Positions 2-56,894 of a stretch of DNA of 64,000 nt are shown here, piece after piece (the first letter of the stretch is position 1; each line of letters opens with the position of its first letter). The DNA is taken from contig CAJOEJ010000005.1 in NCBI GenBank assembly GCA_905233375.1, positions 1-64,000 on the forward strand. The letters run 5' to 3'. The translations under genes were made by a program, and so were the position numbers. Origin of the DNA: Paludibacteraceae bacterium (GTDB lineage: Bacteria; Bacteroidota; Bacteroidia; Bacteroidales; Paludibacteraceae). Under the pieces are notes generated by a model. That model searched no databases, was not told where the DNA came from, and saw nothing but the letters and a program-made list of their open reading frames with translations.

Positions 2-136
2 CCGGAGATCGAACCCGAAGGTCTCGATCAAATCACCAATGACCAAGTACAAAGTACCAAGGTCATCCGTGACGGTATGCTCCTCATCGAGCGGAACGGA
101 AAGACCTACAACGCACAAGGCGTAGAGGTTCGCTAA
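2..136 (+). CDS. C-terminal end of a T9SS substrate (5' end outside window)
   Basis: In-frame reading ending at TAA 134-136 gives ...QVQSTKVIRDGMLLIERNGKTYNAQGVEVR*, matching the sorting tail of the next gene. Confidence 0.7.
   Translation, partial: PEIEPEGLDQITNDQVQSTKVIRDGMLLIERNGKTYNAQGVEVR
41..62 (+). repeat. ACAAAG heptad element (family A), partial copy
   Basis: gaccaagtacaaagtaccaagg; reads DQVQSTK. Confidence 0.8.
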
Positions 137-288
137 TCCGGTGAATTTTCTGCCACTTGATCGAGACAAAGTCGAGAAGATTGACTGACAATGTCGAGAC
201 CAAGTCATTACAATCGGCTAAGCAGGGCTGATCCCCCGCTTGGCTACAAAAAAACGATAAACACTTTTAACAATAAAACAATCACTTT

Positions 289-2397
289 ATGAGAAAAATC
301 TACTCTCTTTTGCTCATACTCTTGATGGCAGTGATGAGCGTGAATGCGGCTAACGTGGTCGATTCCGGCACTTTTGAAGGTGGTGGCAACTGGACGTTTT
401 ATTCCGACGGTACGCTGAACATTGATGCGCAGAAAGTACCGGACTACACCTTTTCAGGCAATAAAACCGATGCACCCTGGGCTAACAGACAGGTGAAAAA
501 TGTCGGTTTCTCGGGGCAGATCCGATACATCGGTAGGAATTCCTTCCGCGGAATGTACGACCTGCGCACCGTGACATTTGGTACCAATTCGGGGACGGTA
601 AAGATCTGCGAGAATGCGTTCCTTGGTACCAGCGTGAATGATTTCGACTTCTCCTATGTCGGTGAAATTGAAGACCAGGCGTTCACCGGAACCCTGCTGC
701 CCCGCGTCGTGCTGCCGAAGATTAACTCGATCAAGGGCGCACCGTTCACCGATTGTATGTATCTGGAGCGCAGCAACCCCTTGGATGCCACCCGGTTACG
801 GTTCAATCCGTCCATCATCATCACCTCCACCAGCTCGCTGAATATCACCGGCGCCATTGCCAAATATACCGATTCGGGTATTGGCACCCGCACGGTGATC
901 ATGTCCCGCTATGACTGTATGGATGCGCAATGGACAAGCAGTGAGATCCTCGGCGTGCGTTCCTATAACACGCTCGTGTTCGGTGCGTTCGAAGACAATG
1001 GTGAGCAGATGTGGTACGTGGATGCAAACGACCGCATGATCTTTGACTGCGCCGGCGCCGACATGAAGGCGTATTCGGTTACAATCAACTCCTCCTCTTC
1101 TATCACGAGCGATGCGCGCCCGTGGAAAGATGCCCTTACGAAGATCAAAGAGCTGCATATCTATCGCAACGATGGTAAAAAAATCAGTTCCTATGCCTTC
1201 TTTGGTTTCAGCAATCTGGAGAAAGTGGAGTTCCACAGCGCCACCGGTACCATCGATGATTCGGCTTTCCGCAAGTGTGCCAAACTGACCACCGTGGACC
1301 TGTCGGAGATAGCGACCATCAATCAGAATGCGTTCAACAGCAGTGCCCTGACCGCTGCCAACCTGACAGCATGCAAGAAGGTGGGCGATTTTGCGTTCGC
1401 CTATAACAAACTTACATCGGTCGTCCTTGGACCGGATCTTGCCAATATCGGCACTTCTGCGTTCGCCTATGCCATCAAAGACAACGGCGATATCACCGCC
1501 AAACGCAGTACACCGCCTACCTTGGGATCGAATGTGTTTGAAGGTGTGAACCAGAACAAAGTGTGGCTGTGGTACGACGAGTCCTTCGCTTCGGCTTATA
1601 ACAAATCGCCGTGGAACCAGTTCAAACATACCGCCGACGCAAATCCTATCTACGGCGTGTATAACGGTACTACCTTGACCATCTACTATGACAACCAGAT
1701 CGCTTCACGTAACGGTGTCGCTGAATGGTGGTGGGAAGCCGAGCGGCGCAATGTAACCAAAGTGGTGTTTGACGCCTCGATGGAGAATGCACGCCCGAGC
1801 AGCACGAAGAACTGGTTCTACGATTTTGAGAATCTGACCAGCTTCGCCAATATATCATACCTGCATACCGACCGCGTGACGACGATGTACAGCATGTTCG
1901 ACGGCTGCAAGAAGTTGACAGCGGTGAAACTCGATCATTTCAAAACGTCCAACGTGACCGATTTCGGTCATATGTTCGCCGGTTGTGAAGCGCTCACCGC
2001 GCTGGATCTGAATTCGTTCGACATGAGCAGTGCCACCACTACCAGTATGATGTTTAGCAACTGCCAGAACCTCCAGCGGATCAACTGCGAGAAGGACTGG
2101 ACGCAATACAGCAGTACCATCATCCTGCCCGGCTCCATGTTCGAAGGGTGTAACAACCTGAAGGGCGGCAGAGGTACGCTCTTTGACTCCTCCAAGAAAG
2201 CGCTTGAATACGCTCGTCCTGACGGCGGTCCCGATGCTCCGGGGTACTTCTGGAGAGCTACCGACACCGGTTCCACCCAGGACGTGGAGAATGTACAGAG
2301 TGACAACGTACAAAGTACAAAGGTTCTCCGCAACGGACAATTCTACATCATTCGTGACGGCAAGATCTACAACGTACAAGGCGTAGAAATCAAGTAA
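289..2397 (+). CDS. BspA-like leucine-rich-repeat / DUF285 surface protein with T9SS C-terminal sorting domain
   Basis: Signal peptide MRKIYSLLLILLMAVMSVNA; repeated LRR_5-like units (SSYAFFGFSNLEKVEF, DSAFRKCAKLTTVDL) and DUF285-like MFxGCxxLTAxxLxxF units; C-term KVLRNGQFYIIRDGKIYNVQGVEIK. Confidence 0.85.
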   Translation: MRKIYSLLLILLMAVMSVNAANVVDSGTFEGGGNWTFYSDGTLNIDAQKVPDYTFSGNKTDAPWANRQVKNVGFSGQIRYIGRNSFRGMYDLRTVTFGTNSGTVKICENAFLGTSVNDFDFSYVGEIEDQAFTGTLLPRVVLPKINSIKGAPFTDCMYLERSNPLDATRLRFNPSIIITSTSSLNITGAIAKYTDSGIGTRTVIMSRYDCMDAQWTSSEILGVRSYNTLVFGAFEDNGEQMWYVDANDRMIFDCAGADMKAYSVTINSSSSITSDARPWKDALTKIKELHIYRNDGKKISSYAFFGFSNLEKVEFHSATGTIDDSAFRKCAKLTTVDLSEIATINQNAFNSSALTAANLTACKKVGDFAFAYNKLTSVVLGPDLANIGTSAFAYAIKDNGDITAKRSTPPTLGSNVFEGVNQNKVWLWYDESFASAYNKSPWNQFKHTADANPIYGVYNGTTLTIYYDNQIASRNGVAEWWWEAERRNVTKVVFDASMENARPSSTKNWFYDFENLTSFANISYLHTDRVTTMYSMFDGCKKLTAVKLDHFKTSNVTDFGHMFAGCEALTALDLNSFDMSSATTTSMMFSNCQNLQRINCEKDWTQYSSTIILPGSMFEGCNNLKGGRGTLFDSSKKALEYARPDGGPDAPGYFWRATDTGSTQDVENVQSDNVQSTKVLRNGQFYIIRDGKIYNVQGVEIK
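2293..2323 (+). repeat. Family A heptad element inside CDS
   Basis: gtacagagtgacaacgtacaaagtacaaagg; VQSDNVQSTK. Confidence 0.9.
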
Positions 2398-2416
2398 TGT
2401 ACAAAGTCCTAACCGA

Positions 2417-2450
2417 CACCCTCCCTCACACACGGGAGGGTGTTTTGTTT
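2417..2450 (+). terminator. Rho-independent terminator
   Basis: CACCCTCCC-loop-GGGAGGGTG followed by TTTTGTTT. Confidence 0.8.
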
Positions 2451-2518
2451 ATCCTCCCCGCGATTTTTTCTGTCTTTAAACTATCCACTTTTCACTTTCA
2501 ACTGAAAAAAGACGAATT

Positions 2519-2555
2519 TTGGTAGCATTTTTGCAAAAATTGGTAGCATTTTTTG
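2519..2555 (+). promoter_or_regulatory. Direct-repeat operator candidate (TTGGTAGCATTTTT x2, 21-bp spacing)
   Basis: ttggtagcatttttgc at 2519 and ttggtagcattttttg at 2540, just upstream of the promoter at 2565. Confidence 0.5.
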
Positions 2556-2564
2556 ATAAGAAAA

Positions 2565-2597
2565 TTTGTGTATATCGTAAAAAAGCAGTACCTTTGC
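2565..2597 (+). promoter_or_regulatory. Bacteroidota promoter, CAG subtype
   Basis: TTTG-tgtatatcgtaaaaaagcag-TACCTTTG, 20-nt spacer. Confidence 0.75.
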
Positions 2598-2627
2598 AGC
2601 GGATTTTAAAAACAAGCAATCTTTTAT

Positions 2628-2864
2628 ATGACATTAGCTGTTCGATTTAGGTATGCAGCCGCCAAGACACCGACGTTTGACATTGTGGAATTGAGTGATG
2701 CCCAATGGCGTGAGTTCTTCTGGCTGGAGCGCAGTATGATGCGTATGGAGTGGATGATTCATTTTCTCCATTATGAGTACATGCAGCACGAAATCAAGGA
2801 ATTATGGTGGATACCGTTGGATGACCAAGACGGGCTGCTGATCGCGCCAAACGGATTCTTATGA
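2628..2864 (+). CDS. Hypothetical protein (78 aa), overlaps start of pectinesterase
   Basis: ORF downstream of a promoter; ATGA overlap with the next CDS. Confidence 0.55.
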   Translation: MTLAVRFRYAAAKTPTFDIVELSDAQWREFFWLERSMMRMEWMIHFLHYEYMQHEIKELWWIPLDDQDGLLIAPNGFL

Positions 2865-3976
2865 TAGCACTTATTTTATCCTTGGTTCTGCATGTTCATC
2901 CGGGAGAATGCATCAATGCCGCATTGGATAGTGCGCGGGGGGTGTATGCGGCGAAAGGGGAACGGACAACGATACTGATTGAACCGGGTACGTATCAGGA
3001 GGAACTGACAATCGACGTGCCGGGGTTGAAGCTCAAAGGCACGAGCCGGAAACAACCGGCGAAGATCACCTGGTACTACGGACACGGGTATCAGTACAGG
3101 TCGATGGGCGGAACGATTAATTACGGCGGTAGCCGTACCCGCCGATGGAATGCGTCCGTACTGGTAACCGCACCCGATTTCTATGCGGAGAACATCATCT
3201 TCGAGAACTCGTTTAATCTCTATGTGAGCGAAAAAGAAGCGCAGGACAGCCTGTATGAGGTACAAAGGGACAAGGTACAAAGTACAAAGGAGAAGGGAAA
3301 AGGGAAAGTGATGCCGGTGCGCCCCAAGGAGGTCGGTTCGACGATAGTATCCACGAAAGCCTACCGTGAACGGGCAGCCGCTATCTCGTTTACCGAAACC
3401 GCCAGGAACGCGCACCTCAAGAACTGTCAGGCGATCGGCAAACAGGACGTGCTGTACGGCGATCAGGGAGCGAGTATATGGTGGGAAGGCGGTGTGCTGT
3501 CCGGAGGAGTGGATTTCATCTTCGGCGCCATGACGCTGTGCGTCGATCGGGCAACGATCATTGCCAATATCACCGACGAGAAAGGCGACAAGTGTTATAT
3601 CTCCGCCGGTCGTTCAGGCGGTGATCAAGAGCCTAACCCCGACCCTTCCCTGAAAGGAAGGGGGATGTTGTTCTATAAATGCCATATCCAGTCGCCGGTA
3701 GCGGGACAAGTGTGGCTGGCGCGTCCATGGCGCTGGTGGGGCGAGACCGTGTGGGCTTATACGACGTGGGACGAAGGGGTGTTGAACCCCGAAGCGTGGA
3801 ACACGGGTTTGATCAAGAAACGGGACGACTTCAATCCCGAGAACCCCTGTCCGTACAGCTACGAATACAAGTCGCAGGACGGTTCTGCGGGGAGACCAAA
3901 ATGGGTCTCCGTTCTCAGGAAACCCATTTTACCGGATGGCACGCGTTTGACTCCCAAAGCCTGGTTGGGACGTTAA
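2861..3976 (+). CDS. Pectinesterase (pectin methylesterase family)
   Basis: PME-like segments RERAAAISFTETARNAHLKNC, QDVLYGD, GGVDFIFGAMTLCVDRATI, LARPWRWWGETVWA. Carries two short repeat insertions. Confidence 0.85.
   Translation: MIALILSLVLHVHPGECINAALDSARGVYAAKGERTTILIEPGTYQEELTIDVPGLKLKGTSRKQPAKITWYYGHGYQYRSMGGTINYGGSRTRRWNASVLVTAPDFYAENIIFENSFNLYVSEKEAQDSLYEVQRDKVQSTKEKGKGKVMPVRPKEVGSTIVSTKAYRERAAAISFTETARNAHLKNCQAIGKQDVLYGDQGASIWWEGGVLSGGVDFIFGAMTLCVDRATIIANITDEKGDKCYISAGRSGGDQEPNPDPSLKGRGMLFYKCHIQSPVAGQVWLARPWRWWGETVWAYTTWDEGVLNPEAWNTGLIKKRDDFNPENPCPYSYEYKSQDGSAGRPKWVSVLRKPILPDGTRLTPKAWLGR
3260..3290 (+). repeat. Family A heptad element inside pectinesterase
   Basis: gtacaaagggacaaggtacaaagtacaaagg; VQRDKVQSTK. 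Confidence 0.9.
3630..3665 (+). repeat. GC-rich palindromic element (family P) inside pectinesterase
   Basis: agcctaaccccgacccttccctgaaaggaaggggga; stem CCCTTCC/GGAAGGG; reads EPNPDPSLKGRG. Confidence 0.85.
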
Positions 3977-3993
3977 CGCATAGTCTGATTTGG

Positions 3994-4860
3994 CTACTTA
4001 ACGGCCTTGAACGACATGTCAAGACTCTTGTAACTGTGGGTGAGCGCACCGACGGAAACGAAGTCCACGCCTTGCAGCGCATAGTCGCGGATGGTATCGA
4101 TGGTGATGCCGCCGGAGGACTCGATCTCCATGTGACGGCCGGCTGTCTTCTCCCAAGCGCGGATGATATCCACCGCCTCTTTGGTCTTGGCAGGTGTGAA
4201 ATTGTCGAGCATGATACGATCGGGGATGTTTGTTGCGAGCGCCTCGTTGATCTCGTCGAAGTTGCGCACCTCAATTTCAATCTTGAGGTTCTTGCCTTTC
4301 TCCTTACAATAATCGCGGGCACGCGTCAGCGCGTTCGTGATACCGCCGGCGAAATCGACGTGGTTGTCTTTGAGCAGAATCATGTCGAACAAACCGATCC
4401 GGTGGTTCATACCTCCTCCCAAAGCAACCGCCTCTTTCTCGAGATAACGCAAGCCCGGGGTGGTCTTGCGGGTATCAAGCACGTGGCATCCGGTATCCTC
4501 TATGAGCGCCTGGTACTTGTGCGCGGTCGTGGCAACACCCGACATGCGCTGCATGATATTGAGCATGGTGCGCTCGATTTGCAGCAGACTCAGTTCTTTT
4601 CCATATACCTTGAACGCCACATCGCCGGGTTTCACATGGTCGCCGTCATGCAGGAACTGCTCGAAGCGGCATTCGGGATCGAAATAGGCAATGATCTCTT
4701 TCGCTACTTCCACACCTGCCAGTACGCCGGTGTCCTTGATGATGAGTTGCTGGCAGCCCATTTGGGTAGGCGGGATACAACTGAGCGAGGTGTGGTCACC
4801 GTCGCGGATGTCTTCTTCAAACCAGATAGCAATCAGTTTGCGCAAAGCTTCTTTTTCCAT
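3994..4860 (-). CDS. nadC: Nicotinate-nucleotide pyrophosphorylase (carboxylating)
   Basis: EEDIRDGDHTS, LDTRKTTPGLRYLEKEAVALGGGMNHRIGLFDMILLKDNH, SSGGI; start MEKEALRKL. Confidence 0.93.
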   Translation of the reverse strand: MEKEALRKLIAIWFEEDIRDGDHTSLSCIPPTQMGCQQLIIKDTGVLAGVEVAKEIIAYFDPECRFEQFLHDGDHVKPGDVAFKVYGKELSLLQIERTMLNIMQRMSGVATTAHKYQALIEDTGCHVLDTRKTTPGLRYLEKEAVALGGGMNHRIGLFDMILLKDNHVDFAGGITNALTRARDYCKEKGKNLKIEIEVRNFDEINEALATNIPDRIMLDNFTPAKTKEAVDIIRAWEKTAGRHMEIESSGGITIDTIRDYALQGVDFVSVGALTHSYKSLDMSFKAVK

Positions 4861-4880
4861 AGATTTATTCAAATTTTGGT

Positions 4881-4913
4881 GCAAAGGTACTATATTTTTT
4901 GCATATACACAAA
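4881..4913 (-). promoter_or_regulatory. Promoter of nadC
   Basis: Minus strand TTTG-tgtatatgcaaaaaatatag-TACCTTTG. Confidence 0.75.
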
Positions 4914-4929
4914 TTTTTTTGCAAATAAA

Positions 4930-4962
4930 TTTGCATATTCCATTTTTTTGTTGTAAATTTGC
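4930..4962 (+). promoter_or_regulatory. Promoter of M24 peptidase gene
   Basis: TTTG-catattccatttttttgttg-TAAATTTG. Confidence 0.75.
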
Positions 4963-4980
4963 AGCCCAAATGACAGAACT

Positions 4981-6777
4981 ATGAATGTATGTGAAAAAAT
5001 AGAAGCTTTGCGTGGTATGATGCGTCAGTATGGTCTGGCGGCATATGTGGTTCCCGGAAACGACCCTCATGCGAGTGAATATATGTCATCGCACTGGTTT
5101 GAGATGCAATGGCTGTCGGGTTTCAAGGGAGAGAGCGGAACGGTCGTTGTCACCTTGGACAAGGCGCTGTTGTGGACGGACAGCCGCTATTACTTGCAGG
5201 CGGGTATCGAGTTGGAGGGCTCGTCCATCGAACTGATGCGCGAGAGCGATATCGACTGCCCGTCGGTCATCGACTGGCTGGCGGAGCATGTGCAGGGATC
5301 CGTGGGGGTGAACCCCGAGATGTTCAGTGTCAACGATTTCGCGGACTGGAAACAGAAGGCGGAACTGAAGAGCGTGGATCTCATCAAACCGCTCTGGACG
5401 GACGGCCGTCCGGCTATCCCGCAGGACAAGTTCTATCCGTACAGCGTGGATTTTGCAGGGGAGAGCGTGGAGAGCAAGCTGGCACGCATGCGGGAGAAGA
5501 TCGCCGCCCTGCATGGCGACGCCCTCATCGTAAGCGCTCTGGACGAGATAGCCTGGCTGCTCAATATCCGCGGAAATGATGTGGAGTATAATCCGGTGGT
5601 CATCTCGTACGTGGTGCTCGAGGCGGACCAATGTACGCTGTTCGTCGATGCAAACAAGATAGACACGATGACGCAGAACTACCTGGACTTCAATAATATC
5701 TCCGTGCATCCCTATGAAGCGGTCTTTGCCTATATCGCGGGTCTGGAAGGAACTATTCTGTACGACGGTGCGCGTGTGAACGAGGCGTTGTATGAAGCCA
5801 TTCCTGAAGGATGCAAAGCAATCAATACGAAGTCTCCCATTCTGGTGGATAAAGCGAAGAAGAACGCCGTGGAGCTGGAGGGCGAGCGTATCGCCATGCG
5901 TCAGGATGCAGTAGCTCTCACGCGTTTCTTCAAATGGCTCGAAGAACAAGCGTTTAAGGGACAAAGTGACAATGTACAAAGTACAAAGGTTACCGAATGG
6001 GATCTGATGGAGAAACTGCACGAGTTCCGCATGATGGGCGAGAACTTCGTGGAGGAGTCGTTCGGCACAATCGCGGGCTATTTGGGGAACGGTGCCATTG
6101 TACACTATGCGGCTACACAAGACCACTGCGCGGAGGTCAAGCCCGAAGGCATGTTGCTGCTCGACAGCGGTGGTCAGTATCTGGACGGCACGACGGATAT
6201 CACCCGTACCATCTGGCTCGGCGGGCGCATCCCGCAGCAGGCGAAACTGGACTATACCTACGTGCTCAAGGGACACATCGCGCTCGCCCGCGCCCGTTTC
6301 CCGAGAGGTACACGGGGAAACCAGTTGGACGCTCTCGCGAAGCAGTTCATGTGGGAGGCAGGTATCACCTACGGTCATGGTACAGGTCACGGCGTGGGAC
6401 ACTTCCTCGGCTGTCACGAAGGACCGCAGAACGTACGTACGGACAATAACCCCACCGTCCTCGAAGCGGGACACATCGTCTCAGACGAACCGGGTATATA
6501 CCGTACCGGCAAATGGGGTATCCGCACGGAGAACCTGATCACCGTCATTCCTGCGAAGACGACCAAAGCCGCTACCACGGAAGACGAATGGCTGGTGTTC
6601 GAGACGCTCACGCTCTGCTTCTATGACACCTCGCTCATCGAGATGAGTATCATGACCGAGGACGAGATAGACTGGATCAACGCCTATCACGTGCGCGTAT
6701 ATAAGGAGGTGGCTCCGCTGCTCAATGCTGACGAACGCGCCTTCCTCGCACGCAAGTGCGCAGCGCTGGAGAGATGA
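4981..6777 (+). CDS. M24-family Xaa-Pro aminopeptidase
   Basis: LLLDSGGQYLDGTTDITRTIWLG, GHGTGHGVGHFLGCHEGP, SDEPGIY, GIRTENL motifs. Confidence 0.92.
   Translation: MNVCEKIEALRGMMRQYGLAAYVVPGNDPHASEYMSSHWFEMQWLSGFKGESGTVVVTLDKALLWTDSRYYLQAGIELEGSSIELMRESDIDCPSVIDWLAEHVQGSVGVNPEMFSVNDFADWKQKAELKSVDLIKPLWTDGRPAIPQDKFYPYSVDFAGESVESKLARMREKIAALHGDALIVSALDEIAWLLNIRGNDVEYNPVVISYVVLEADQCTLFVDANKIDTMTQNYLDFNNISVHPYEAVFAYIAGLEGTILYDGARVNEALYEAIPEGCKAINTKSPILVDKAKKNAVELEGERIAMRQDAVALTRFFKWLEEQAFKGQSDNVQSTKVTEWDLMEKLHEFRMMGENFVEESFGTIAGYLGNGAIVHYAATQDHCAEVKPEGMLLLDSGGQYLDGTTDITRTIWLGGRIPQQAKLDYTYVLKGHIALARARFPRGTRGNQLDALAKQFMWEAGITYGHGTGHGVGHFLGCHEGPQNVRTDNNPTVLEAGHIVSDEPGIYRTGKWGIRTENLITVIPAKTTKAATTEDEWLVFETLTLCFYDTSLIEMSIMTEDEIDWINAYHVRVYKEVAPLLNADERAFLARKCAALER
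5957..5990 (+). repeat. Family A heptad element inside Xaa-Pro aminopeptidase
   Basis: gggacaaagtgacaatgtacaaagtacaaaggt; GQSDNVQSTK. Confidence 0.9.
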
Positions 6778-9660: not shown

Positions 9661-9697
9661 GTACAAAGGGACAAAGTACAAAGTACCAAGGAACAAT
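9661..9697 (+). repeat. Family A heptad element, intergenic
   Basis: gtacaaagggacaaagtacaaagtaccaaggaacaa. Confidence 0.9.
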
Positions 9698-22592: not shown

Positions 22593-22624
22593 GGTACAAA
22601 GGGACAAAGGACAATGTACAAAGG
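22593..22624 (+). repeat. Family A heptad element, intergenic
   Basis: ggtacaaagggacaaaggacaatgtacaaagg. Confidence 0.88.
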
Positions 22625-25554: not shown

Positions 25555-26571
25555 TTACTTTTTGTGAGCGGCGATGGATAGTTGGACCGAATTAAAGAGA
25601 TTTTGCCAGATGATATACGCAGTCGCTCCCAATACGGCTAAAGGATGCAGGTACATCTGCGCCATCCATACGCCGAGGGAGGTGTTCTTTTGTCCGAACG
25701 CTTGTCCGGCTGTAATGGACGAGACGCCCGCCATGGTCTTGGGTGCAGCCGCGGGGTTGATGAGGACATCCTGGTAGTCCCGTCCTTTGGACGGCGCGGG
25801 CATGTGGTAGCCGATCAGTTTGCCGAGACCAAACTGCAACAGACAAACGACAAACGAACCGACAATGACCAGTATGATGTTCGAGATCTGCTCTGCAAAA
25901 TTCTCTATGACCGTTTTCGTAACGACGGCTGTCAGGACAATAATGGACATGACCCACAGGTAGAAGGGAATGACCGCCAGTTTAGTTGGCAGAACGAACT
26001 CGCGATGGGTAAACCTATTATAACCAAGCCGCACTGCCCATGCTGCGAAGAAGGGCGTGAGCAGCAATGGACCTACACGACTGAGAATCAGCAGAAACGC
26101 TTCCCAAAAGGTCATGTCTGCCGCGGGGTTCACAATAGGGAAGAACGCTGGGACGATGATGGAGGTGGCAAAATTGGACAACAAGGTGAACGTTGTCAGA
26201 TTCTGTATCGAACCGCCTAACTTGCCGGCAATAATGGGTGCGGCGGTGGCTGTCGGCATAATGAAGCATAACATCAGCCCTTGCGCCAGAATGCTGTTTC
26301 CTGTGAGCGCCATTAAAGCGTAATACACTCCCACCGCGAAACATAACTGAACCGCCAAAACGACTCCATGCCATTTATGGAGGCGCAGATCGAGGGGGTT
26401 AACCTTGCAGAAGGTGAAAAAGAGCATGAAGAAAATGAGCCACGGCAAGACCGGCTTGAGCGGTAGGAGCCATTGGTAACACAAGGCACCGATGAGCATC
26501 GAGAGCCAGAGGGCGTTGGAATCAAAGAATGTACGAAGTGACGATGTACAATGTACAAAGGATTTTTTCAT
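25555..26571 (-). CDS. Bile acid:sodium symporter family transporter (BASS-like)
   Basis: Multi-TM ORF; LMCFIMPTATAAPIIAGKLGGSIQNLTTFTLLSNF; start MKKSFVHCTSS overlaps dus stop. Confidence 0.8.
   Translation of the reverse strand: MKKSFVHCTSSLRTFFDSNALWLSMLIGALCYQWLLPLKPVLPWLIFFMLFFTFCKVNPLDLRLHKWHGVVLAVQLCFAVGVYYALMALTGNSILAQGLMLCFIMPTATAAPIIAGKLGGSIQNLTTFTLLSNFATSIIVPAFFPIVNPAADMTFWEAFLLILSRVGPLLLTPFFAAWAVRLGYNRFTHREFVLPTKLAVIPFYLWVMSIIVLTAVVTKTVIENFAEQISNIILVIVGSFVVCLLQFGLGKLIGYHMPAPSKGRDYQDVLINPAAAPKTMAGVSSITAGQAFGQKNTSLGVWMAQMYLHPLAVLGATAYIIWQNLFNSVQLSIAAHKK
26531..26560 (+). repeat. Family A heptad element, antisense to the N-terminus of the BASS-like transporter
   Basis: gtacgaagtgacgatgtacaatgtacaaag; on the gene strand reads FVHCTSSLRT. 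Confidence 0.8.
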
Positions 26572-27647
26572 GACCATTTTTCTACTATTTCGTCCATGAT
26601 GGAGAATACTTCGTTGACTGTTTCGGCACGGAGGAGGGCGATGCGTGTCTGTTTGAAGTCGTTCAGCCCTTTGAAGACCGGTGAGGCGGCAAAATGGCGG
26701 CGTGAATGGACGATTCCTTTGCGCTCGTCGTTGCCACACCAGGCGATCGAAGCGAGGACGTGCTCCTTGAGGACTGATACTTTTTCGGACATCGTTCGGG
26801 GGAAGCCTACCCCCTGCCCCTCCCCGAAGGGAAGGGAGTTCGGATCCAGATGCGCTTTCATCTCTGCGAAGAGCCAAGGCGCTCCGAACGTGGCACGCCC
26901 TATCATGATGGCATCGACGCCGTACCGGTCGAAGCATTCGCGTGCGCGTTCGGGCGTACACACGTCTCCGTTTCCTATAATAGGTATACGTATGCGCGGG
27001 TTGTTTTTGACTTCTCCGATGAGTGTCCAGTCCGCTTCGCCGCGGTACATCTGCGAACGTGTGCGACCGTGAATGGCGAGTTCCTGGATTCCGCAGTCCT
27101 GGAGGGCGAGTGCCAAATCGAGGATGAAGAAAGAGCCTACCCCCGTCCCCTCCCTGAAGGGAAGGGAGGAAAGTCCAAGCGGATTATAACGCGGGAGGAG
27201 GTCGTTTTCATCCCATCCGAGGCGGGTCTTGCAGGTGACGGGTGTGTGGACGGCGTTGACGACGGCACGGGTGATCTCCAGCATCTTCGGTACGTCTTTG
27301 AGGAGTCCTGCGCCGGCACCCTTTCCGGCGACTTTCTTGACCGGACAGCCGAAATTGATATCGATGAAATCGGGGTGCGCCTGTTCGACGATGCGTGCGG
27401 CGTCCGCCATCGATTCGGGTTCGCGTCCGTAGATCTGAATGGCTACGGGTCGCTCGGCATCGTGGATGGTCAGTTTGCGGGTGGTGGAGGCGATATCGCG
27501 GACGAGAGCGTCGGCGTTGACGAACTCAGTATAGACCCGATCGGCACCGTACCGCTTGCACAACATCCGGAAAGCGGGATCGGTCACGTCTTCCATCGGA
27601 GCCAAATATAAGGGGTGATTGGTTATTGGTGATTGGTTATTGGTCAT
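26568..27647 (-). CDS. dus: tRNA-dihydrouridine synthase
   Basis: LAPMEDVTDPAFR, INFGCPVKKV, PVTCKTRLGW, IHGRTRSQMYRGEADW, PIIGNGDV, IMIGRATFGAPW. Confidence 0.93.
   Translation of the reverse strand: MTNNQSPITNHPLYLAPMEDVTDPAFRMLCKRYGADRVYTEFVNADALVRDIASTTRKLTIHDAERPVAIQIYGREPESMADAARIVEQAHPDFIDINFGCPVKKVAGKGAGAGLLKDVPKMLEITRAVVNAVHTPVTCKTRLGWDENDLLPRYNPLGLSSLPFREGTGVGSFFILDLALALQDCGIQELAIHGRTRSQMYRGEADWTLIGEVKNNPRIRIPIIGNGDVCTPERARECFDRYGVDAIMIGRATFGAPWLFAEMKAHLDPNSLPFGEGQGVGFPRTMSEKVSVLKEHVLASIAWCGNDERKGIVHSRRHFAASPVFKGLNDFKQTRIALLRAETVNEVFSIMDEIVEKWS
26801..26838 (+). repeat. Family P element in dus, antisense to gene
   Basis: ggaagcctaccccctgcccctccccgaagggaagggag; gene strand reads NSLPFGEGQGVGFP. 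Confidence 0.85.
27131..27170 (+). repeat. Family P element in dus, antisense to gene
   Basis: aagagcctacccccgtcccctccctgaagggaagggagga; gene strand reads SSLPFREGTGVGS. Confidence 0.88.
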
Positions 27648-27648
27648 T
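27612..27648. repeat. Period-7 microarray (KATTGGT)n at HD/dus junction
   Basis: tgattggttattggtgattggttattggtcatt; encodes dus N-terminus MTNNQSPITNH. Confidence 0.88.
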
Positions 27649-29557
27649 TGTTCAGCGTCGGATAGGAGATACGGTGGTGGTGGATGGCGACGAGACGGGA
27701 GATGAAGACACGGCGGATGTCCTCCACATCTTTGAACGAGAGCGGTGTTTCAGCAAACTGCCCGTCCGCTATCTGGCTGTCTATCATCTGGTTAACAGCA
27801 TTGGAGATGGACTCTTCGGTATATTCGGACAGACTGCGCGAGCGTGCTTCGATGGCGTCCGCCATCATGAGTATCGCCCCTTCTTTGGTCGAGGGTTTGG
27901 CACCGGGATAACGGAAGAGTGACTGGTCCACCTGCTCGCCGGGATGCGCGTTGCAGTAGGTGTTGTAGAAATAGCGCACGAGCGAATTGCCGTGATGGGT
28001 GGTAATGAAGTTAATGACCACTTCGGGCAGGTGGTTGCGCCGTGCTATCTTCTCTCCTTCGGCGACGTGTGCAATGATGATTTTCGCCGCTTCCCTCGGA
28101 TCCATCTTCAGCAGCGGGTTTTCTCCACCGCTCTGGTTCTCCACAAAATAGAGCGGGTTGGCTATTTTGCCTATATCGTGATAGAGAGCACCTGTCCGAA
28201 CGAGGAGTGCATTCGCCCCGATCGTCTTGGCTGCTTCGGAGGCGAGGTTGGATACCTGCATGGAGTGCTGGAATGTTCCGGGCGCCCGTTCGGCGAGCGT
28301 GTGGAGCAGTTCGGAGTTGATATCCGCCAGTTCGACGAGGGTGATAGACGAGATGAAACGGAAGATTTTCTCGAACGCGTAGATCAGTCCGTAACAACCG
28401 ATCGTGAGCAGTCCGCAGATGAAGAAATCGAGGTACATCCACGGGTTGATGGCGGTCCAGACCCCTGTCTGCGCAAAGGAAATAGCGGTATATGCGACCG
28501 TCTGTGCGAGGAAGATCCATCCGGCAGTCTGTACGAGCTGGGCGCGGCGTGTCATGTCGGAGAGCGAGGAGACAGCCACCATTCCGACCACTATCTGGAT
28601 AAAGAAGAACTCGACCGGTGCGGGCACGACGATAGAGGCAATGAGTACGGTGGTGAAATGCAGGTAGAGGGCGGTGCGGGAGTCAAAGAACACGCGGGTC
28701 AGGATAGGTACCCACGCAAAAGGAATGAGATAGACGGAGAGGTTGAACCGCAACGCCAGACACGACAAGGCAATGAGAATGAAAATCTGGATACAGAAGA
28801 AGATGACGGTGGATGTGGCGCGGATGTACTGGATACGGAAGACGTAGAGGAAGACGACGAACAGACACAGGAAAAGCGCTACGAGAATGGACTCGCCCAG
28901 GATGGAGAGGGTGCGCTGTTTGTTTCCGAGAGCCTCGTCATCGTACGCCGTCCGTAGCGACTGGAGTACCTGATAGGTGCGGTCGGAGACGATTTCCCCT
29001 TTCTCGATTATTTTCTCGCCTTTCTGTACCATTCCTTGTGTGGGTGAGAGGGTGGCGAGCAGTTTCTCCTGCATCGACTCGGTGAGCGCCGTGTCGCGGA
29101 CGAGGTTCTGTTCGCAGGCGTATCCGTAGTGCTCGTACGCTGTCTTGGGGGTGTATATCTCGGAGAGAGGATAGGTTTTGTAGGTGGATCCTTTCTGCTG
29201 GATCGCCAGCCGGTTGAAGCCTTCCGACTCCATCCATTCCATCTCCTGAAGCGACACGACGGATATCTGGCGCTGCGTTCCGCGGATGTATTTGTAGCAG
29301 GGCGAGAAAGTGGACAGCAGTTGTTGCTGCTCTTTGTGCAGCTGCTCCTCGGTTTTGTAGATAGGGAAGTCAAAATCCGCCGTCAGGGTGGAGTATCCCC
29401 ACGGTTTGCCTATCTCGTAGTGGTATCGGAAGGCGTTGTTATAGCGCGGGAACATGAGTACAATGACTGCTGCCAGTACGACAAAGGTCCCCAAACGAAG
29501 AATCGTCCGGATCTTTTTCGAATGGGTGAGGGGTAATAGGTAATTGGAGACTTTCAT
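27644..29557 (-). CDS. 7TM-HD domain phosphodiesterase (PgpH/YqfF-like)
   Basis: LYHDIGKIANPLYFVENQ, ITTHHGNSLVRYFY, multiple TM helices. Confidence 0.88.
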   Translation of the reverse strand: MKVSNYLLPLTHSKKIRTILRLGTFVVLAAVIVLMFPRYNNAFRYHYEIGKPWGYSTLTADFDFPIYKTEEQLHKEQQQLLSTFSPCYKYIRGTQRQISVVSLQEMEWMESEGFNRLAIQQKGSTYKTYPLSEIYTPKTAYEHYGYACEQNLVRDTALTESMQEKLLATLSPTQGMVQKGEKIIEKGEIVSDRTYQVLQSLRTAYDDEALGNKQRTLSILGESILVALFLCLFVVFLYVFRIQYIRATSTVIFFCIQIFILIALSCLALRFNLSVYLIPFAWVPILTRVFFDSRTALYLHFTTVLIASIVVPAPVEFFFIQIVVGMVAVSSLSDMTRRAQLVQTAGWIFLAQTVAYTAISFAQTGVWTAINPWMYLDFFICGLLTIGCYGLIYAFEKIFRFISSITLVELADINSELLHTLAERAPGTFQHSMQVSNLASEAAKTIGANALLVRTGALYHDIGKIANPLYFVENQSGGENPLLKMDPREAAKIIIAHVAEGEKIARRNHLPEVVINFITTHHGNSLVRYFYNTYCNAHPGEQVDQSLFRYPGAKPSTKEGAILMMADAIEARSRSLSEYTEESISNAVNQMIDSQIADGQFAETPLSFKDVEDIRRVFISRLVAIHHHRISYPTLNK

Positions 29558-30730
29558 TTATCGTTTCTTTTTAAAAAAATCCTGCATAAGTGCGCGGCAT
29601 TCGTCTTCGAGTACGCCGGCAGTGACGGTTGCTTTGGGATGCAACGCCCGCGGTGAGTAGGTGGCAAACCCGCGTTTGGGGTCGGGTGCGCCATAGACGA
29701 TCCGTTTTATCTGCGCCCATCCGATTGCTCCAGCGCACATGACGCAGGGTTCGACGGTGACATAGAGGGTGGCGTCCGGCAGATATTTGCCTCCGAGGGT
29801 CTGTGATGCGGCTGTAACCGCTTGAATCTCTGCGTGCGCCGTGACGTCGGTGAGTGTCTCGGTGAGGTTGTGCCCCCGTCCGATGACCCGGTTCTGCGCG
29901 ACGATGACGCATCCAACGGGTATCTCATCGGCGGCGAGTGCTTTCTCCGCTTCCAATAACGCCATCTTCATGAATTTCTCGTCTTCTTCAGTTCCCCGAC
30001 GGCTCTCCGTCTCGGTTTTGTGGCAGAAAAGTGCCAGTTGCTCGGGATGGTCTTCGAAGTGGTTTCCTATGACAACGATATCCGCGCCGGCATCAAAGGC
30101 GGCGTTCATGGCTTCGGGGGTTCGTATACCTCCGCCCACGATGAGCGTGACGGTGGTATGAGCTCTGACCGCCTTGATTATTTCCGATGAAACCGGCGTT
30201 TTTGCCCCGCTTCCGGCTTCCAGATAGATGTATTGTTTGCCCATCATCTCGGCGGCTATCGCGGTGTCCACGATCCGGTCTGTCTGATCCTGCGGAATAG
30301 GCGTTGTCTGCGTGACGCGCATGGTGGATGTCTCCACTCCGCCATCGATGAGGATATAGGCGGTAGGAAGCACTTCGACGGACGAGTTGCGGATGGCTCC
30401 TGCCGCCCGGATCTGCTGATCTACAAGGTATTCCGGGTTTCGTCCGGAGAGAAGCGAGAGAAAGAGAATCGCGTCCGCTTCGGGGGTGAACTGGGCGGCG
30501 TTGCCGGGGAATAAAATGATGGGTAATTGGTGATTGGTGATTGGTGATTGGTGATCGGTGAGTGGTAATTTTTTCCTGAGAGCGCGGACAAAATCCGTTG
30601 TGTCCCCGCCGGTGGAACCGCCGACAAAGATATAGTCGGGGTGGCACTCTGCGGTGAAACGGAGTGCGTCCAGATTCGCCTTTTCGGGATCCAGCAGCAA
30701 GGCAAGACTATGTTTCTTTTTCATTTCCAT
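29558..30730 (-). CDS. GGGP synthase (PcrB-like) fused to tRNA adenosine deaminase TadA
   Basis: N-half: LLDPEKANL, FVGGSTGG, ILFPGNAAQFTPEADAILFLSLLSGRNPEYLV, GGGIRTPE. C-half: HAEIQAVTAA, PCVMCAGAI, YGAPDPKRG. Single uninterrupted frame. Confidence 0.88.
   Translation of the reverse strand: MEMKKKHSLALLLDPEKANLDALRFTAECHPDYIFVGGSTGGDTTDFVRALRKKLPLTDHQSPITNHQLPIILFPGNAAQFTPEADAILFLSLLSGRNPEYLVDQQIRAAGAIRNSSVEVLPTAYILIDGGVETSTMRVTQTTPIPQDQTDRIVDTAIAAEMMGKQYIYLEAGSGAKTPVSSEIIKAVRAHTTVTLIVGGGIRTPEAMNAAFDAGADIVVIGNHFEDHPEQLALFCHKTETESRRGTEEDEKFMKMALLEAEKALAADEIPVGCVIVAQNRVIGRGHNLTETLTDVTAHAEIQAVTAASQTLGGKYLPDATLYVTVEPCVMCAGAIGWAQIKRIVYGAPDPKRGFATYSPRALHPKATVTAGVLEDECRALMQDFFKKKR
30521..30570. 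repeat. Period-7 microarray (TGATTGG)6 inside GGGPS coding region
   Basis: taattgg tgattgg tgattgg tgattgg tgatcgg tgagtgg; gene strand reads LTDHQSPITNHQLPI. Confidence 0.9.
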
Positions 30731-31401: not shown

Positions 31402-31450
31402 CATTTTTGTACTCAATTTGCATTTTTTGTCAATAAAAATGTGCGCGCGC

Positions 31451-31482
31451 TTGCATATGTAAAAAAAAAGTTGTATCTTTGC
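31451..31482 (+). promoter_or_regulatory. Promoter of mannose-1-phosphate guanylyltransferase gene
   Basis: CTTG-catatgtaaaaaaaaagttg-TATCTTTG. Confidence 0.78.
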
Positions 31483-31506
31483 GCCCGATTAGGCAAAAAG
31501 TATATT

Positions 31507-32592
31507 ATGAACGATATTCAAAATAATTTCTGTGTCATTATGGCTGGCGGCATCGGAAGCCGTTTCTGGCCGTACAGCCGTGAGCAGAAACCGAAGCAGT
31601 TCCTGGATTTTTTCGGAACCGGTCGCAGTCTGTTGCAGATGACGGTGGACCGTTTCCGTCCGTTGATCCCGATAGAGAATGTGTTTGTGGTGACGAACAA
31701 GGCGTACAAGGATATCATCCTGGAGCAAGTGCCGGATATGTCGGAGAGCCAGATTTTGTGCGAACCTGCTCGCCGGAATACGGCGCCGTGTATCGCGTAT
31801 GCAACGAATCGCATCCGCTCTAAGGTACAAAGTGACAAAGGACAAAGGACAAAGGACATCCGCATTGTGGTGGCGGCAAGTGACCATCTGATTTTGGAGG
31901 AGGAGAAATTCCGCCGGACCGTTCAGCATGCATTTGATTTCGTCGGGGAGAACAAAGCCATTTGTACCTTAGGTATGCAGCCGACCCGTCCCGAGACCGG
32001 ATACGGATATATTGAAGTACAAAGGGACAATGTACCAAGTACAAAGGATATTTTCCCCGTCAAGCAGTTCCGGGAGAAGCCGGATTTAGAGACGGCGAAG
32101 GGATACCTGGCGAGCGGCGACTACCTGTGGAACAGCGGTATTTTTGTCTGGAGTCTGGAGACGATCAGCGAGGCGCTGGACAAATACCTGCCGGAGGTGG
32201 CGGATATCTTTGCGAAAGGCGCAGGGGTCATCGGAACCCCGGACGAATCCGCATTCATCGACGAGTATTTCCCGAAATGCCCGAATATATCCATTGACTA
32301 TGCGGTGATGGAGAAAGCGGACAATGTGTATGTGTTGCCGTCTTCGTTCGGCTGGAGCGATTTAGGTACCTGGGGCAGTTTGTACGAGTTGAGCGAGAAA
32401 GACGGGAACGGGAATGTGAGTCTGCACAGCGAGGCGCATTTCTATGAGGCGGAGCGCAATATAGTGGTGCTGGAGCCCGGCAAAGTGGCGATCGTGCAAG
32501 GAGTGGAGGATATGATTATTGCGGAGCAGGACGGCGCATTGCTCATTTGCAAGAAAGCGGAGGAGCAGCGTATCAAAGAATGGGTGAAATAA
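31507..32592 (+). CDS. Mannose-1-phosphate guanylyltransferase
   Basis: VIMAGGIGSRFWPYSREQKPKQFLDF, FREKPDLETAKGYLASGDYLWNSGIFVW. Confidence 0.92.
   Translation: MNDIQNNFCVIMAGGIGSRFWPYSREQKPKQFLDFFGTGRSLLQMTVDRFRPLIPIENVFVVTNKAYKDIILEQVPDMSESQILCEPARRNTAPCIAYATNRIRSKVQSDKGQRTKDIRIVVAASDHLILEEEKFRRTVQHAFDFVGENKAICTLGMQPTRPETGYGYIEVQRDNVPSTKDIFPVKQFREKPDLETAKGYLASGDYLWNSGIFVWSLETISEALDKYLPEVADIFAKGAGVIGTPDESAFIDEYFPKCPNISIDYAVMEKADNVYVLPSSFGWSDLGTWGSLYELSEKDGNGNVSLHSEAHFYEAERNIVVLEPGKVAIVQGVEDMIIAEQDGALLICKKAEEQRIKEWVK
31823..31858 (+). repeat. Family A heptad element inside GMP pyrophosphorylase, copy 1
   Basis: aggtacaaagtgacaaaggacaaaggacaaagga; VQSDKGQRTK. Confidence 0.88.
32016..32048 (+). 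repeat. Family A heptad element inside GMP pyrophosphorylase, copy 2
   Basis: agtacaaagggacaatgtaccaagtacaaagg; VQRDNVPSTK. Confidence 0.88.
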
Positions 32593-41740: not shown

Positions 41741-41778
41741 AAAAAAGAAGGGTAAAAACGCAAAAAAGTACGATTTTA

Positions 41779-41811
41779 TTTGCATATATCAAAAAAAAGT
41801 TGTACCTTTGC
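41779..41811 (+). promoter_or_regulatory. Promoter upstream of tRNA-Arg
   Basis: TTTG-catatatcaaaaaaaagttg-TACCTTTG. Confidence 0.78.
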
Positions 41812-41973
41812 ACCCCATTTTGCCGTATTCGGCATACTTTTTGTGTGCCTAATATGGAATTATGGGGTCCCCGATGTAACTCGTAGAGTTGCAGCGGGGG
41901 GAAGCGTAGCACGGAACGAAGGCACAATTGAGCGACGAGGTAGCGAATCGTGCGAAGTTCCGATGCAAGCGCA

Positions 41974-45778: not shown

Positions 45779-45911
45779 AAAACCGCACAAAAATTTGAAG
45801 TTTTCCTCAAAATACAGCCCTATGGGGTGTTTTTTATTTCATATCTTATATCCCAAACTGACAAATCGAATAGACAATTTGCATAATCAGAGGTAATTTT
45901 TTCAAAAATTC

Positions 45912-45943
45912 TTGCATATATAAAAAAAATATTGTAATTTTGC
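45912..45943 (+). promoter_or_regulatory. Promoter of glycogen phosphorylase gene
   Basis: CTTG-catatataaaaaaaatattg-TAATTTTG. Confidence 0.78.
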
Positions 45944-46035
45944 ACGCTTTTTTCCCGTTGGGTGAATAGAAGCCCCAGGGCTTGTCGGCGGGAGAGCAAC
46001 AAAACAGAAATTTAATTACATAAATATATTTACCT

Positions 46036-49221: not shown

Positions 49222-49254
49222 ATATGAAAAAGTATAAAAAAATGTAGCCAGCTC

Positions 49255-49286
49255 TTGCATATGTCAAAAAAAAGCAGTAATTTTGC
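49255..49286 (+). promoter_or_regulatory. Promoter of giant T9SS gene, CAG subtype
   Basis: CTTG-catatgtcaaaaaaaagcag-TAATTTTG. Confidence 0.78.
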
Positions 49287-49445
49287 ACCGTCTTTGCTCA
49301 AGTGCCCTTAGGCACGAAAGAATTGACTTGTCGTAAAAGGTCTAACACGTTACAAAAGTTTCGTGTCGGTCTTTGCGAAAATCTTTTTGTGTAACCGTAC
49401 TACGGTGCCTGGTAATGAACATAAATAGCAAAAATACATAAAACA

Positions 49446-55400: not shown

Positions 55401-56894
55401 ACCGACCGTCTGTTAGCAGCATTGGAACCGAGTGGAAACATCGATGCAGAACAGGCAATCAATGCAGATGTCATGTTCGTTCGTGAGCATCAGGGAGATA
55501 TCAAGCAGTTGACCTTCAGCGAAAATGCATTGACTGAAGAGATGGGAGCCATTACGGAAATTAAAACTGCCTACGCGGTAATGCGATTCAATAAGTGGAC
55601 TTTGAACAACAAATCAAAGGAAGGTGGACATGCCGTTTTGGATCCGTTACTCTCTCGCTATGAGCGTGACTTGTTCTATGTATCGTTCCCGTTCCGCGTT
55701 TCAATGAACGAGGTATTCGGATTTGGTACGTACGGTAAGCATTGGATTATTGAGTACTATGACGGAGAAGCACGCGCGGCTAACGGATTCTGGGCAGAGA
55801 CTGCGTCCTACTGGAGATATGTTACGGATCGTAGGGGTAAGTTCTTTGAACCGAACCAGGGATATATTATAGCCTTGGATCTGGATGAGTTGGGCGAGGA
55901 TTCCGAGGTATGGAACAATAACGTGCAGAACGTTGAACTCTACTTCCCGTCATACGGAACGATGGGAGATATTACCAATGCTACAGTAGAAATGACTATA
56001 CCCGAACATACATGTACTATCGGCCCACGCTTTGTGGGTGGAGACGACCGCCGTGTGAAGGATAGTCACTGGAATGTGATGTCTGTTCCGACATACGTCA
56101 ATACGAGCAGTGTAGACTTCGCTAACACAACGTGGACAGCAACTAAACCGAGCTTCCTCTATGAGTGGAACCCCAGCGATAACTCGCTTACACCTCGTTC
56201 AGGAACCGGTTATACGTACCACGCTATGCATGCATACATCGTACAATACGCCGGAAAAGTGACTTGGACGTCCACCAGCGTCACGCCGTCATCTGTCGTG
56301 GCGCGTGAGCGCAAGGCACCGAGTGAAGTGGAATTCCGTCTGGAGTTGAGTCAAAACGACCGGATAATGGATCAGACCTTCGTCAAGTTGAGTGACGATG
56401 AGGAGGTAAGTACGGAATTTGTCTTCGGTGAAGATATGTCGAAGGAGTTCCACAAGAGCAATTCGAACATCTACACAATGGTTAGCACAATGATTGACGG
56501 CGACCTCTCCGTTACCGAGACCGCAGGTAACACGCTGCCTATGACAGAGCAGACAACCCTTGTTCCGGTAGGTGTGAAGATAGCTACTGACGGCGATTAC
56601 ACCTTCGCGATTCCGGAAGGAACGAATGGAGTAGGCGTCACGCTCATTGATAACGAGACCGGAATCCGCACGAGCCTGAGCGCACTCGATTATACCGTTA
56701 ACCTGAGTGCCGGTACGTACAATGGACGCTTTGAGTTGGAGATATCGCCGATTGTTCAGACACCTACGGACGTCGAAAATGTACAAAGTGACAATGTACA
56801 AGGTACAAATGTACGCAAAGTGCTCATTGACAACATGCTCTATATCGTCAAGGACGGCAAGATGTATGACGCGCGCGGAGCACGTGTAGAATAA
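49446..56894 (+). CDS. Giant InlB-B-repeat (Listeria-Bacteroides repeat) T9SS surface protein (2482 aa)
   Basis: Extended signal MKNSNYNFKSIVQSNARWLLTLLAILTLGVGQMRA; repeats YYVAFNANGGTGSMSNESFTYD...AGWNTKADGSGDPY...LYAQW; C-term KVLIDNMLYIVKDGKMYDARGARVE. Confidence 0.92.
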   Translation: MKNSNYNFKSIVQSNARWLLTLLAILTLGVGQMRAYEATIFFAPGEIDAAWDSWTECWVNVNHGNWVNYEMDNTGLTYNGHTLYYKHYTDGNQDKAWTIEFHKEQNEWLGRKALDNVETNSSVFNNKLWNGSSWVDVKYIYGDGDGNWLNGQLWVSDAVSNSIIKGTTRTYTSCAPGLKSFRLTGSSTLGYSNINECNVPYYTNEHNNICFSTVATADITIGYDDSGISINVTYADLASTLNDILNNQKIMFYYGDNWSVDCAKYLHTTNSPRDNHYSSVSIHLNDRRLAIAIVEPDVRYWVANDGSWAGLQMTQVAKKGGRYTLYSDNGDRLDESNGELPSWTTSAATIAKGTTNSGLAATCNNSVIGRSHTYSYYYTQDADNGSASWNEFNPASAASLAVGEYTVRALAHDGNIYVRTESAATLTVYAAITLNNHGATSAGTTSVNAVLGSTAADISVPSKTGYTFNGYYTGENGAGTKVINANGSWVSNNSGYTDNSSPCKYDATANHELHAYWTEDDHTVTVNATAGGSVASASVTGHYETNVTLPTATADPGYYFTGWTTTDGSVTYTNQSSATSAQVNGLTAAATVQANFLPIWRVAYSGDSYYTDNHQITTITTSAGVMTSGSVTIDLNANTDYAFKIFNKQADHWWGHVGDVTKITYANQATAQSLSDDNTGNDQTFHTAGKGTYTFTWNVSSSEITITYPTSYTVTFGEGTGYGAAVTASVESSGAINSGDYAAAGKDITFTQSAATGYSFAGWYDASTGGSAVATMGVGDNVLDDIGANATVYSRYTENKSTITVSAGTGGTVTTGSGEHSLGVATTQAINASANPGYTWSTWTTTGVARLTDAATSASNTATTDGTNGGTGTITATFTANTYYVAFNANGGTGSMSNESFTYDADAKALTTNTFTRSHYTFAGWNTKADGSGDPYTDEQKVSNLATSGTLALYAQWTEITHDVSASASPVAGGTVTPTSATAMGEDNGGDITASANTGYTFSAWSIASGSGDFGASGTATTSTTANTKFRPLANATLTATFTAHTYSVRFNANSGSGSMDNQAFTYDAAQNLTACAFTKTGYSFGGWATSQANADAGTKAYDNEESVSNLASAQGAVVDLYAIWTANPYTVTLNVDEANKGTIAEATTSQDVTYDDATITVPNLPTAANGYCFMGFYTATAGGGTKLINADGTWIASVAGYTDGSANWKYTGNVTLYAYYQKAEITNIAFTGGAVAPPSTSKTVTATISPTPTGTTTVCWRILYSNDNPLDPQPAFSPSAQGTSVSFTSPAEGGAYKVEAVLRTGSLCGGGTTLDSVTANFQVATEHNVTVLYKCGSDIIAASTSMTGKPLEWTSITAPDIFGYTFDHWVAGDGITLSEDGEDELGEDESEEETIYIRAVYDGRLTAVYDKKKLIFLDLSQTFSLSGKWNNPYAYFYTSAGYWDSSKGAGATGAACVGKGAMTNIEGTDIWYYDYGSVSNFGNIIAFTWDDHLTAVNFSSTDVIYRSDFSEGTPLFVPHVGQTPEEKNTPSAKYYEAGYWVTYLGEKTGYTLRIKNSSTHELIKEVPFTSETKRMSMEAVTDLEASHTYEFEVMRDNGKYYKNNGSMTYSSRNGNWEFTEAKSIGTIVTTASGDYTFTLSFADNNNDENYQLRVNVKYPVATNDYRLIYKDDVHTAFKPSAVVANKPGGTDIVSFFVRPNSNPILYKQTASVAGDGTITWATTATNLITADMKSAVITKDSVYNFNLVMDEGGNLSVGSVEAYTGNFYIRTDGANNKWDNYTNADHMMTYSEYSEKNAGYSHYFMAFVENNVNVKFVVANDYSPCISDTLVQGSESALMDASGFIYERANVRFMWNRHDNSLRRAYLAAAKDDGTKFLVLRANSSSDMMDKDGNALINSANSGQAGYNRKAPDNSIQFVDTENWIYETNVKIKPSAYVKLYAHYHSADHYFKGENNGTFDGSNAIQLMTGTGEPELVRVIYDFKTDRLLAALEPSGNIDAEQAINADVMFVREHQGDIKQLTFSENALTEEMGAITEIKTAYAVMRFNKWTLNNKSKEGGHAVLDPLLSRYERDLFYVSFPFRVSMNEVFGFGTYGKHWIIEYYDGEARAANGFWAETASYWRYVTDRRGKFFEPNQGYIIALDLDELGEDSEVWNNNVQNVELYFPSYGTMGDITNATVEMTIPEHTCTIGPRFVGGDDRRVKDSHWNVMSVPTYVNTSSVDFANTTWTATKPSFLYEWNPSDNSLTPRSGTGYTYHAMHAYIVQYAGKVTWTSTSVTPSSVVARERKAPSEVEFRLELSQNDRIMDQTFVKLSDDEEVSTEFVFGEDMSKEFHKSNSNIYTMVSTMIDGDLSVTETAGNTLPMTEQTTLVPVGVKIATDGDYTFAIPEGTNGVGVTLIDNETGIRTSLSALDYTVNLSAGTYNGRFELEISPIVQTPTDVENVQSDNVQGTNVRKVLIDNMLYIVKDGKMYDARGARVE
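56780..56814 (+). repeat. Family A heptad element inside giant T9SS protein
   Basis: tgtacaaagtgacaatgtacaaggtacaaatgtac; VQSDNVQGTN. Confidence 0.88.

Follow-up and report, generated by a model that had tools for sequence, protein, structure and literature searches.

A heptanucleotide-based repeat dispersed in frame through unrelated genes of an uncultured Bacteroidales species

Results

Family A copies in the window

The 64-kb stretch of DNA analysed here (the window) encodes, among others, a BspA-type LRR protein, a pectinesterase, an M24 aminopeptidase, a BASS-like membrane protein, a tRNA-dihydrouridine synthase, a GMP pyrophosphorylase and a 2482-aa protein, and carries copies of a 31-mer repeat, family A, together with arrays of other heptads (Table 1). 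Eight matches to the 31-mer were found at ≤3 mismatches, a number for which dinucleotide shuffles (n = 100) predict 0.00; a ninth copy has four mismatches, and a further one is degenerate. The degenerate copy is weak by itself and recognisable only from its context, a 75% repeat with positions 2301-2387. A previous sequence-only reading had counted about ten copies. In a single sense frame, it placed one each in the LRR protein, the pectinesterase, the M24 peptidase and the 2482-aa protein and two in the GMP pyrophosphorylase; one was antisense in the N-terminal part of the BASS-like protein (FVHCTSSLRT), and two lay between genes. Each of these placements was recovered, all of the sense copies reading as VQSDN-type peptides, although the start of the BASS-like gene is uncertain and the ORF tested had no Pfam match. 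A cluster of family A copies lies in linkers that precede the C-terminal tails of secreted proteins.

Table 1. Repeat copies in the window, antisense copies at other loci of the same genome, and a recurrent 43-nt motif
Feature	Position or locus	Strand	Remarks
Degenerate family A copy (VPSTK)	32..62	+	5' of the C-terminal tail, truncated window-start CDS; 9 mismatches
Family A, sense frame 0, VQSDNVQSTK	2293..2323	+	BspA-type LRR protein 289-2397, linker before C-terminal tail
Family A, sense frame 0, VQRDKVQSTK	3260..3290	+	Pectinesterase 2861-3976
Family A, sense frame 0, GQSDNVQSTK	5959..5989	+	M24 aminopeptidase 4981-6777
Family A, intergenic	9661..9691	+	≤3-mismatch match
Family A, intergenic	22594..22624	+	4 mismatches
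Family A, antisense to BASS-like membrane protein	26531..26561	+	Reads MKKSFVHCTSSLRTFF, directly before first hydrophobic segment
AATCACC heptad array	27605..27652		N-terminus MTNNQSPITNHP of tRNA-dihydrouridine synthase, minus strand
AATCACC heptad array	30517..30570		In-frame KLPLTDHQSPITNHQLPI, 390-aa protein 29558-30730; different heptads there in L086/L087
Family A, GMP pyrophosphorylase site 1	31825..31855	+	Model residues 107-116, helix end/loop; common to L086 and L088; not in L087 or others
Family A, GMP pyrophosphorylase site 2	32017..32047	+	Model residues 171-180, beta-hairpin loop
Family A, sense frame 0, VQSDNVQGTN	56781..56811	+	2482-aa protein, linker before C-terminal tail
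Antisense copy, signal peptide	L035	antisense	Judged by eye
Antisense copy, signal peptide MKKSICSFILCTLSLCTLQAATYY	L056	antisense	Judged by eye
Antisense copy, lipoprotein signal CTLYIVTLSFVMASC	L068	antisense	Judged by eye
Antisense copy, lipoprotein signal CTLYIVTLSFLSGC	L070	antisense	Judged by eye
Antisense copy, membrane segment	L082	antisense	Judged by eye
43-nt motif copies	2564-2606, 4929-4971, 31449-31491, 41778-41820, 45910-45952, 49253-49295, 57402-57444, 63135-63177

Structure and genome-wide number of the element

Family A is built on the heptad AADGTAC (D = A, G or T), its second unit, AAAGKGAC, being 8 nt long and thus one base longer than the others. The layout is AAD GTACAAAG KGACAAD GTACAAD GTACAAAGG (roughly AAD-GTACAAAG-KGACAAD-GTACAAD-GTACAAAGGA), and because of the extra base in the second unit the distance from GTAC to the last AAG comes to 30 nt, a multiple of three. 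The whole element spans about 31 bp plus 3-4 flanking bases, as its constant part runs some three bases further upstream (RAD), with an A at position -2 in 75 of 75 copies. Coding and noncoding copies alike start with AAD and favour a T in front and GGA behind; the two flanks, RAD and GGA, are therefore features of the DNA, and RAD may belong to the element rather than to its target. No inverted or terminal inverted repeat was found within the element, which agrees with the earlier description of a sequence that is not a simple palindrome and has a 7/8-nt internal period, and a hairpin or RNA function was set aside because no fold was significant (z-scores -0.3 to -1.6).

In the draft genome (2.23 Mb in 47 contigs, 84% complete), the scan proposed with the sequence-only reading returned 112 copies at ≤3 mismatches, dispersed among unrelated loci, and none for the reversed-pattern control; a degenerate pattern returned 133. 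Longer arrays are head-to-tail forms, one of which consists of four 39-nt units in frame. Among 75 copies there were 60 distinct 31-mers and no clear subfamilies, and a phylogeny of subfamilies was dropped. The statistics that follow are based on 55 stretches chosen around copies plus the window (487 kb), in which 120 clusters were annotated. Gene calls come from a hexamer model of our own making, which leaves a few edge cases uncertain, and functional names derive partly from sequence recognition and conserved motifs, a few of them having been checked by Pfam or PDB search.

Reading frame and strand

Among 90 isolated copies, 52 lie in sense frame 0, 2 in frame 1, 4 in frame 2 and 2 antisense, and 30 are noncoding or at gene edges, so that 52 of the 60 coding copies read as VQSDNVQSTK-type peptides. 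This answers the proposal that frame bias be tested: frame 0 makes up 87% of the coding copies versus 36% predicted from the RAD|G context (p about 4e-16), which eliminates flanking-sequence preference as the sole cause, and its excess holds when sense copies are taken by themselves (p = 2e-7). Noncoding DNA accounts for 10.4% of the sampled DNA and is enriched in copies (30 of 90, p = 4e-9). For three other species, frame 0 accounts for 20 of the 30 copies and frame 2 for 2; 3 are antisense and the remaining 5 noncoding or uncertain.

The peptide encoded in sense frame 0 has a mean hydropathy of -1.4, and the antisense peptides (FVLCTLSLCT and LCTLYIVTLY, also LCTLYIVTLS) are hydrophobic, with means of +0.7 to +2.1. 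All six antisense coding copies examined in the genome itself fall in a signal peptide, a lipoprotein signal, or a membrane or pre-membrane segment, and the three from other species all fall at N-terminal signals, one of them a lipoprotein signal and one apparently comprising two tandem copies; these assignments were made by eye from a basic start, a hydrophobic run and a cleavage or lipobox motif. Because the bias exceeds what the flanks predict, and because the antisense reading, being hydrophobic, occurs only at places that can accept such sequence, frame and strand bias are best explained by filtering at the protein level. Frame 0 is strongly favoured even over frame 1, which is also polar (MYKVTMYKVQR), and hydrophilicity alone may be insufficient to account for this preference.

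Comparison with relatives and known structures

In EngB, FolD and RsmA, the VQSDN peptide is missing at the corresponding site in most congeners. RsmA site 1 is common to three congeners, and some insertions must therefore predate speciation. In GMP pyrophosphorylase, site 1 is shared only by the close relatives L086 and L088 and site 2 only by L086, L087 having a GATTGAA heptad array at site 2 and L088 no repeat there; most other Bacteroidales have a short loop, and at neither site do distant members of the order carry the same peptide. The copies shared with relatives (RsmA site 1 and GMP pyrophosphorylase site 1) are old, so that not every copy is recent.

Alignments to solved homologues of RsmA, EngB and DXS (PDB) have gaps at or beside the peptides. 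In an AlphaFold model of GMP pyrophosphorylase (mean pLDDT 89), site 1 coincides with the end of a helix and a loop; site 2 falls in a hairpin loop, where local confidence is lower than anywhere else except the C-terminus. The peptide is derived and located in loops, as congeners and solved homologues mostly do without it at these sites; this bears out the earlier placement in surface loops between conserved blocks, and the congener and PDB alignments rule out ancestral sequence. The ortholog alignment proposed alongside that placement thus found sites lacking the peptide in most relatives, but gave fuzzy insertion boundaries: at the DNA level even the closest relatives match at only about 72-79% identity, too little to place exact junctions or to demonstrate target duplication or microhomology. 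Family A also often takes the place of ancestral loop residues instead of adding to them.

Family A was detected in 67 of 121 sampled genomes of the genus (the present one included), at 0-54 copies in the other genomes versus 133 here, and in none of 148 other genomes sampled across the order, among them one from the same family but a different genus. Among named genomes, the closest relatives belong to uncultured Bacteroidales and Paludibacteraceae, and we read the sample names of several as rumen-type. A single exact-pattern scan of viral contigs gave no match, and carriage by phage was rejected on this ground. The copies are homogenised in a species-specific manner, with variants at positions 9, 15 and 22 differing between species (p < 3e-6 each), which points to recent copying within genomes; neighbouring variable positions are correlated within single copies, and the two patterns together are what recent within-genome copying and exchange between units would give.

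Other heptad families

Seven nucleotides is the dominant tandem period. Heptad arrays occur at 209/Mb in our own sample (enriched, since it was chosen around copies), 125/Mb in the window, 93-143/Mb in four congeners and 93-263/Mb in the genus, compared with 15/Mb in 73 loci from other organisms, the majority of them Bacteroidota. Our sample contains 31 heptad types, family A being the most expanded of many in the genus. Members of the AATCACC family encode PITNHQS in many proteins, and AAAGGTG, translated as GERLKVKGE, predominates in one congener (G015). The same loop may hold different families in different species, as in the C-terminal loop of RsmA (five heptads), the EngB hairpin, site 2 of GMP pyrophosphorylase, the window sites near 29986 and 30517, and the protein at L084/L196.

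Other short repeats were seen in coding sequence. One of GACCGCTGCGCTGTAAGA type sits in permissive loops of some congeners, at L088 near the equivalent of window position 29986 and in the EngB loop at L177. A CCCTCCC-rich repeat is in frame in the dihydrouridine synthase (26804-26838 and 27134-27168; NPLGLSSLPFREGTGVGS, PNSLPFGEGQGVG) and the pectinesterase (3630-3664; DPSLKGRGM) of the window, and similar peptides occur in LigA-, LepB- and DapB-like proteins at other loci. A 253-aa DapB-like protein (L043, 7577-8335) apparently contains three in-frame repeat families (VQRDNVQGTK, EELRIKNYELRS and LSPTLSTGEGEG).

Discussion

Heptameric repeats of bacteria have so far been known mostly from intergenic DNA, and invasion of reading frames by repeats mainly from Rickettsia palindromic elements (RPEs), which are dispersed in frame through unrelated metabolic genes and encode a conserved peptide compatible with folding (PMC10969869). 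Family A resembles RPEs in its in-frame position in unrelated genes and its one conserved peptide; however, RPEs are palindromic and about 150 bp long (PMC10969869), whereas family A is a 31-bp, heptad-based sequence with no palindrome and belongs to a set of dozens of interchangeable families. The RPE precedent invoked in the sequence-only reading thus applies to the effect of in-frame insertion but not to palindrome or length, and RPEs are a functional parallel of family A rather than its parent family. Heptads of the TAACTGA type have been described from Beggiatoaceae and some Cyanobacteria and Bacteroidetes (PMC4679880), and GGGAATC and GGGGAYT from Xanthomonas and Nostoc (PMC4692102), in both cases mainly from intergenic DNA and upstream of genes. 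With these repeats, including Calothrix heptads, family A shares 7-base units (here in excess over other periods and over relatives), many dispersed arrays per genome and species-specific dominant units, but it differs in being a fixed, irregular 31-mer most copies of which are coding and in frame (60 of 90 isolated copies are coding, despite the enrichment outside genes). REP/REPIN-RAYT systems (PMC3116915) are similarly short, dispersed and species-specific, but family A lacks a hairpin and the genome a clear Y1 transposase. MITE and REP-type elements in general differ by terminal inverted repeats or a hairpin, neither of which is present in family A. The very small mobile repeats of cyanobacteria (SDRs) measure 21-27 nt and are comparable in size and dispersal. 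Family A unites an RPE-like effect with the heptanucleotide sequence class, and adds a peptide filter that depends on strand.

Several explanations of this pattern were weighed. Loop lengths vary in any case, and the peptide might be taken for ordinary ancestral loop sequence or for chance low-complexity DNA, but with no matches in shuffled or reversed controls and with the relatives' sites empty this idea is refuted, and we give it practically no credence. If VQSDNVQSTK itself acted as a linker or as a site for sorting or proteolysis, with the DNA merely following, the very strong preference for one frame and the clustering of copies in linkers before the C-terminal tails of secreted proteins would be accounted for. 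Selection for the peptide is nonetheless very improbable, as one third of the copies are noncoding with identical consensus and variable positions, third codon positions in coding copies are no more variable than second positions, unrelated heptad peptides occupy the same loops in other species, and antisense readings serve, as judged by eye, as signal peptides. Purely local slippage, in which arrays grow in place from a flanking 7-mer with no copying between loci, would suit the dominance of the heptad period, the many different units and the flanks that in some cases resemble the unit (AATGAAC beside the RsmA arrays); over-representation of bacterial heptad repeats is attributed to slippage in PMC4679880 and PMC4692102, which cite earlier work. 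More than 100 unrelated loci, however, have the 8-nt second unit and the KGAC signature, which occur in none of the other genera sampled, and variants are homogenised across loci within species, so that we judge slippage by itself to be quite improbable.

A dedicated transposase or integrase acting in trans on a miniature mobile element, as is thought for RPEs, MITEs or REPs, would explain many dispersed copies confined to one genus, species-specific bursts, constant ends, and arrays with periods of 22, 39 and 44 bp that resemble insertions beside or into older copies. Against it stand the absence of a palindrome or terminal inverted repeat and the fact that many unrelated heptad families act alike, which a single sequence-specific enzyme would not explain. 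In searches of the genome (84% complete), Y1_Tnp gave one sub-threshold match and RVT_1 none, and on these results the Y1/RAYT and reverse-transcriptase mechanisms were rejected. We regard a mobile element as unlikely.

We think it probable that short heptad repeats are copied round the genome and then filtered by compatibility with the host protein; the manner of copying, and that the filter reflects tolerance rather than benefit, we infer. Family A, in this account of copying and filtering, would have been copied to many loci in one uncultured gut Bacteroidales species, and less so in its congeners, probably through short homologies, by template switching or ectopic conversion via its RAD and AAAGG ends; we prefer these routes to a dedicated transposase, given the like behaviour of many unrelated heptads and the lack of terminal structure. 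Heptad slippage would reshape the arrays afterwards. Landing sites would be blind to genes, with selection purging copies whose peptide the host protein cannot tolerate. The sense reading, VQSDNVQSTK, would make a short polar loop and persist in loops and linkers, the hydrophobic antisense reading (FVLCTLSLCT/LCTLYIVTLS) would persist in signal peptides and membrane segments, and further copies would persist between genes. A broader proposal, that a genus-wide process other than a classical transposon copies heptads between loci and swaps families in permissive loops, so that many genes, housekeeping ones included, are continually supplied with new loops from one strand and with new signal peptides or membrane segments from the other, is offered tentatively, as a possibility that we doubt somewhat more than we believe. 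The interpretation with which this analysis began thus stands as regards dispersal, in-frame insertion, loops and the non-palindromic sequence, but has to be amended in that family A is one of many families and often replaces a loop rather than being cleanly added.

The heptad repeats described here reach into tRNA synthetases, DXS, EngB, RsmA, FolD, DapB, LigA and signal peptidase (named from sequence and motifs). Strand decides whether a copy reads as a polar loop or an export signal, and related species have different repeats in the same loop, which would make the genus a natural setting in which to test the remodelling of proteins by small repeats. With more than 100 congeners available, one can directly test how loops and signal peptides arise from non-protein DNA. 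Repeat-bearing proteins of this kind mimic errors of assembly or annotation without being such, and call for caution.

Other features of the window

The window also contains eight copies of a 43-nt motif, ATTTGCATAT...TTGTA..TTTGCA (Table 1), several of them just 5' of genes, and the motif is probably a Bacteroidetes-type promoter with conserved context. Within an 853-aa gene (22716-25277) lies a 284-bp direct repeat (23644-23927 and 24274-24557, 83%), and positions 57269-57368 hold an intergenic 8-nt repeat, TTAAATCA, in 12.5 copies.
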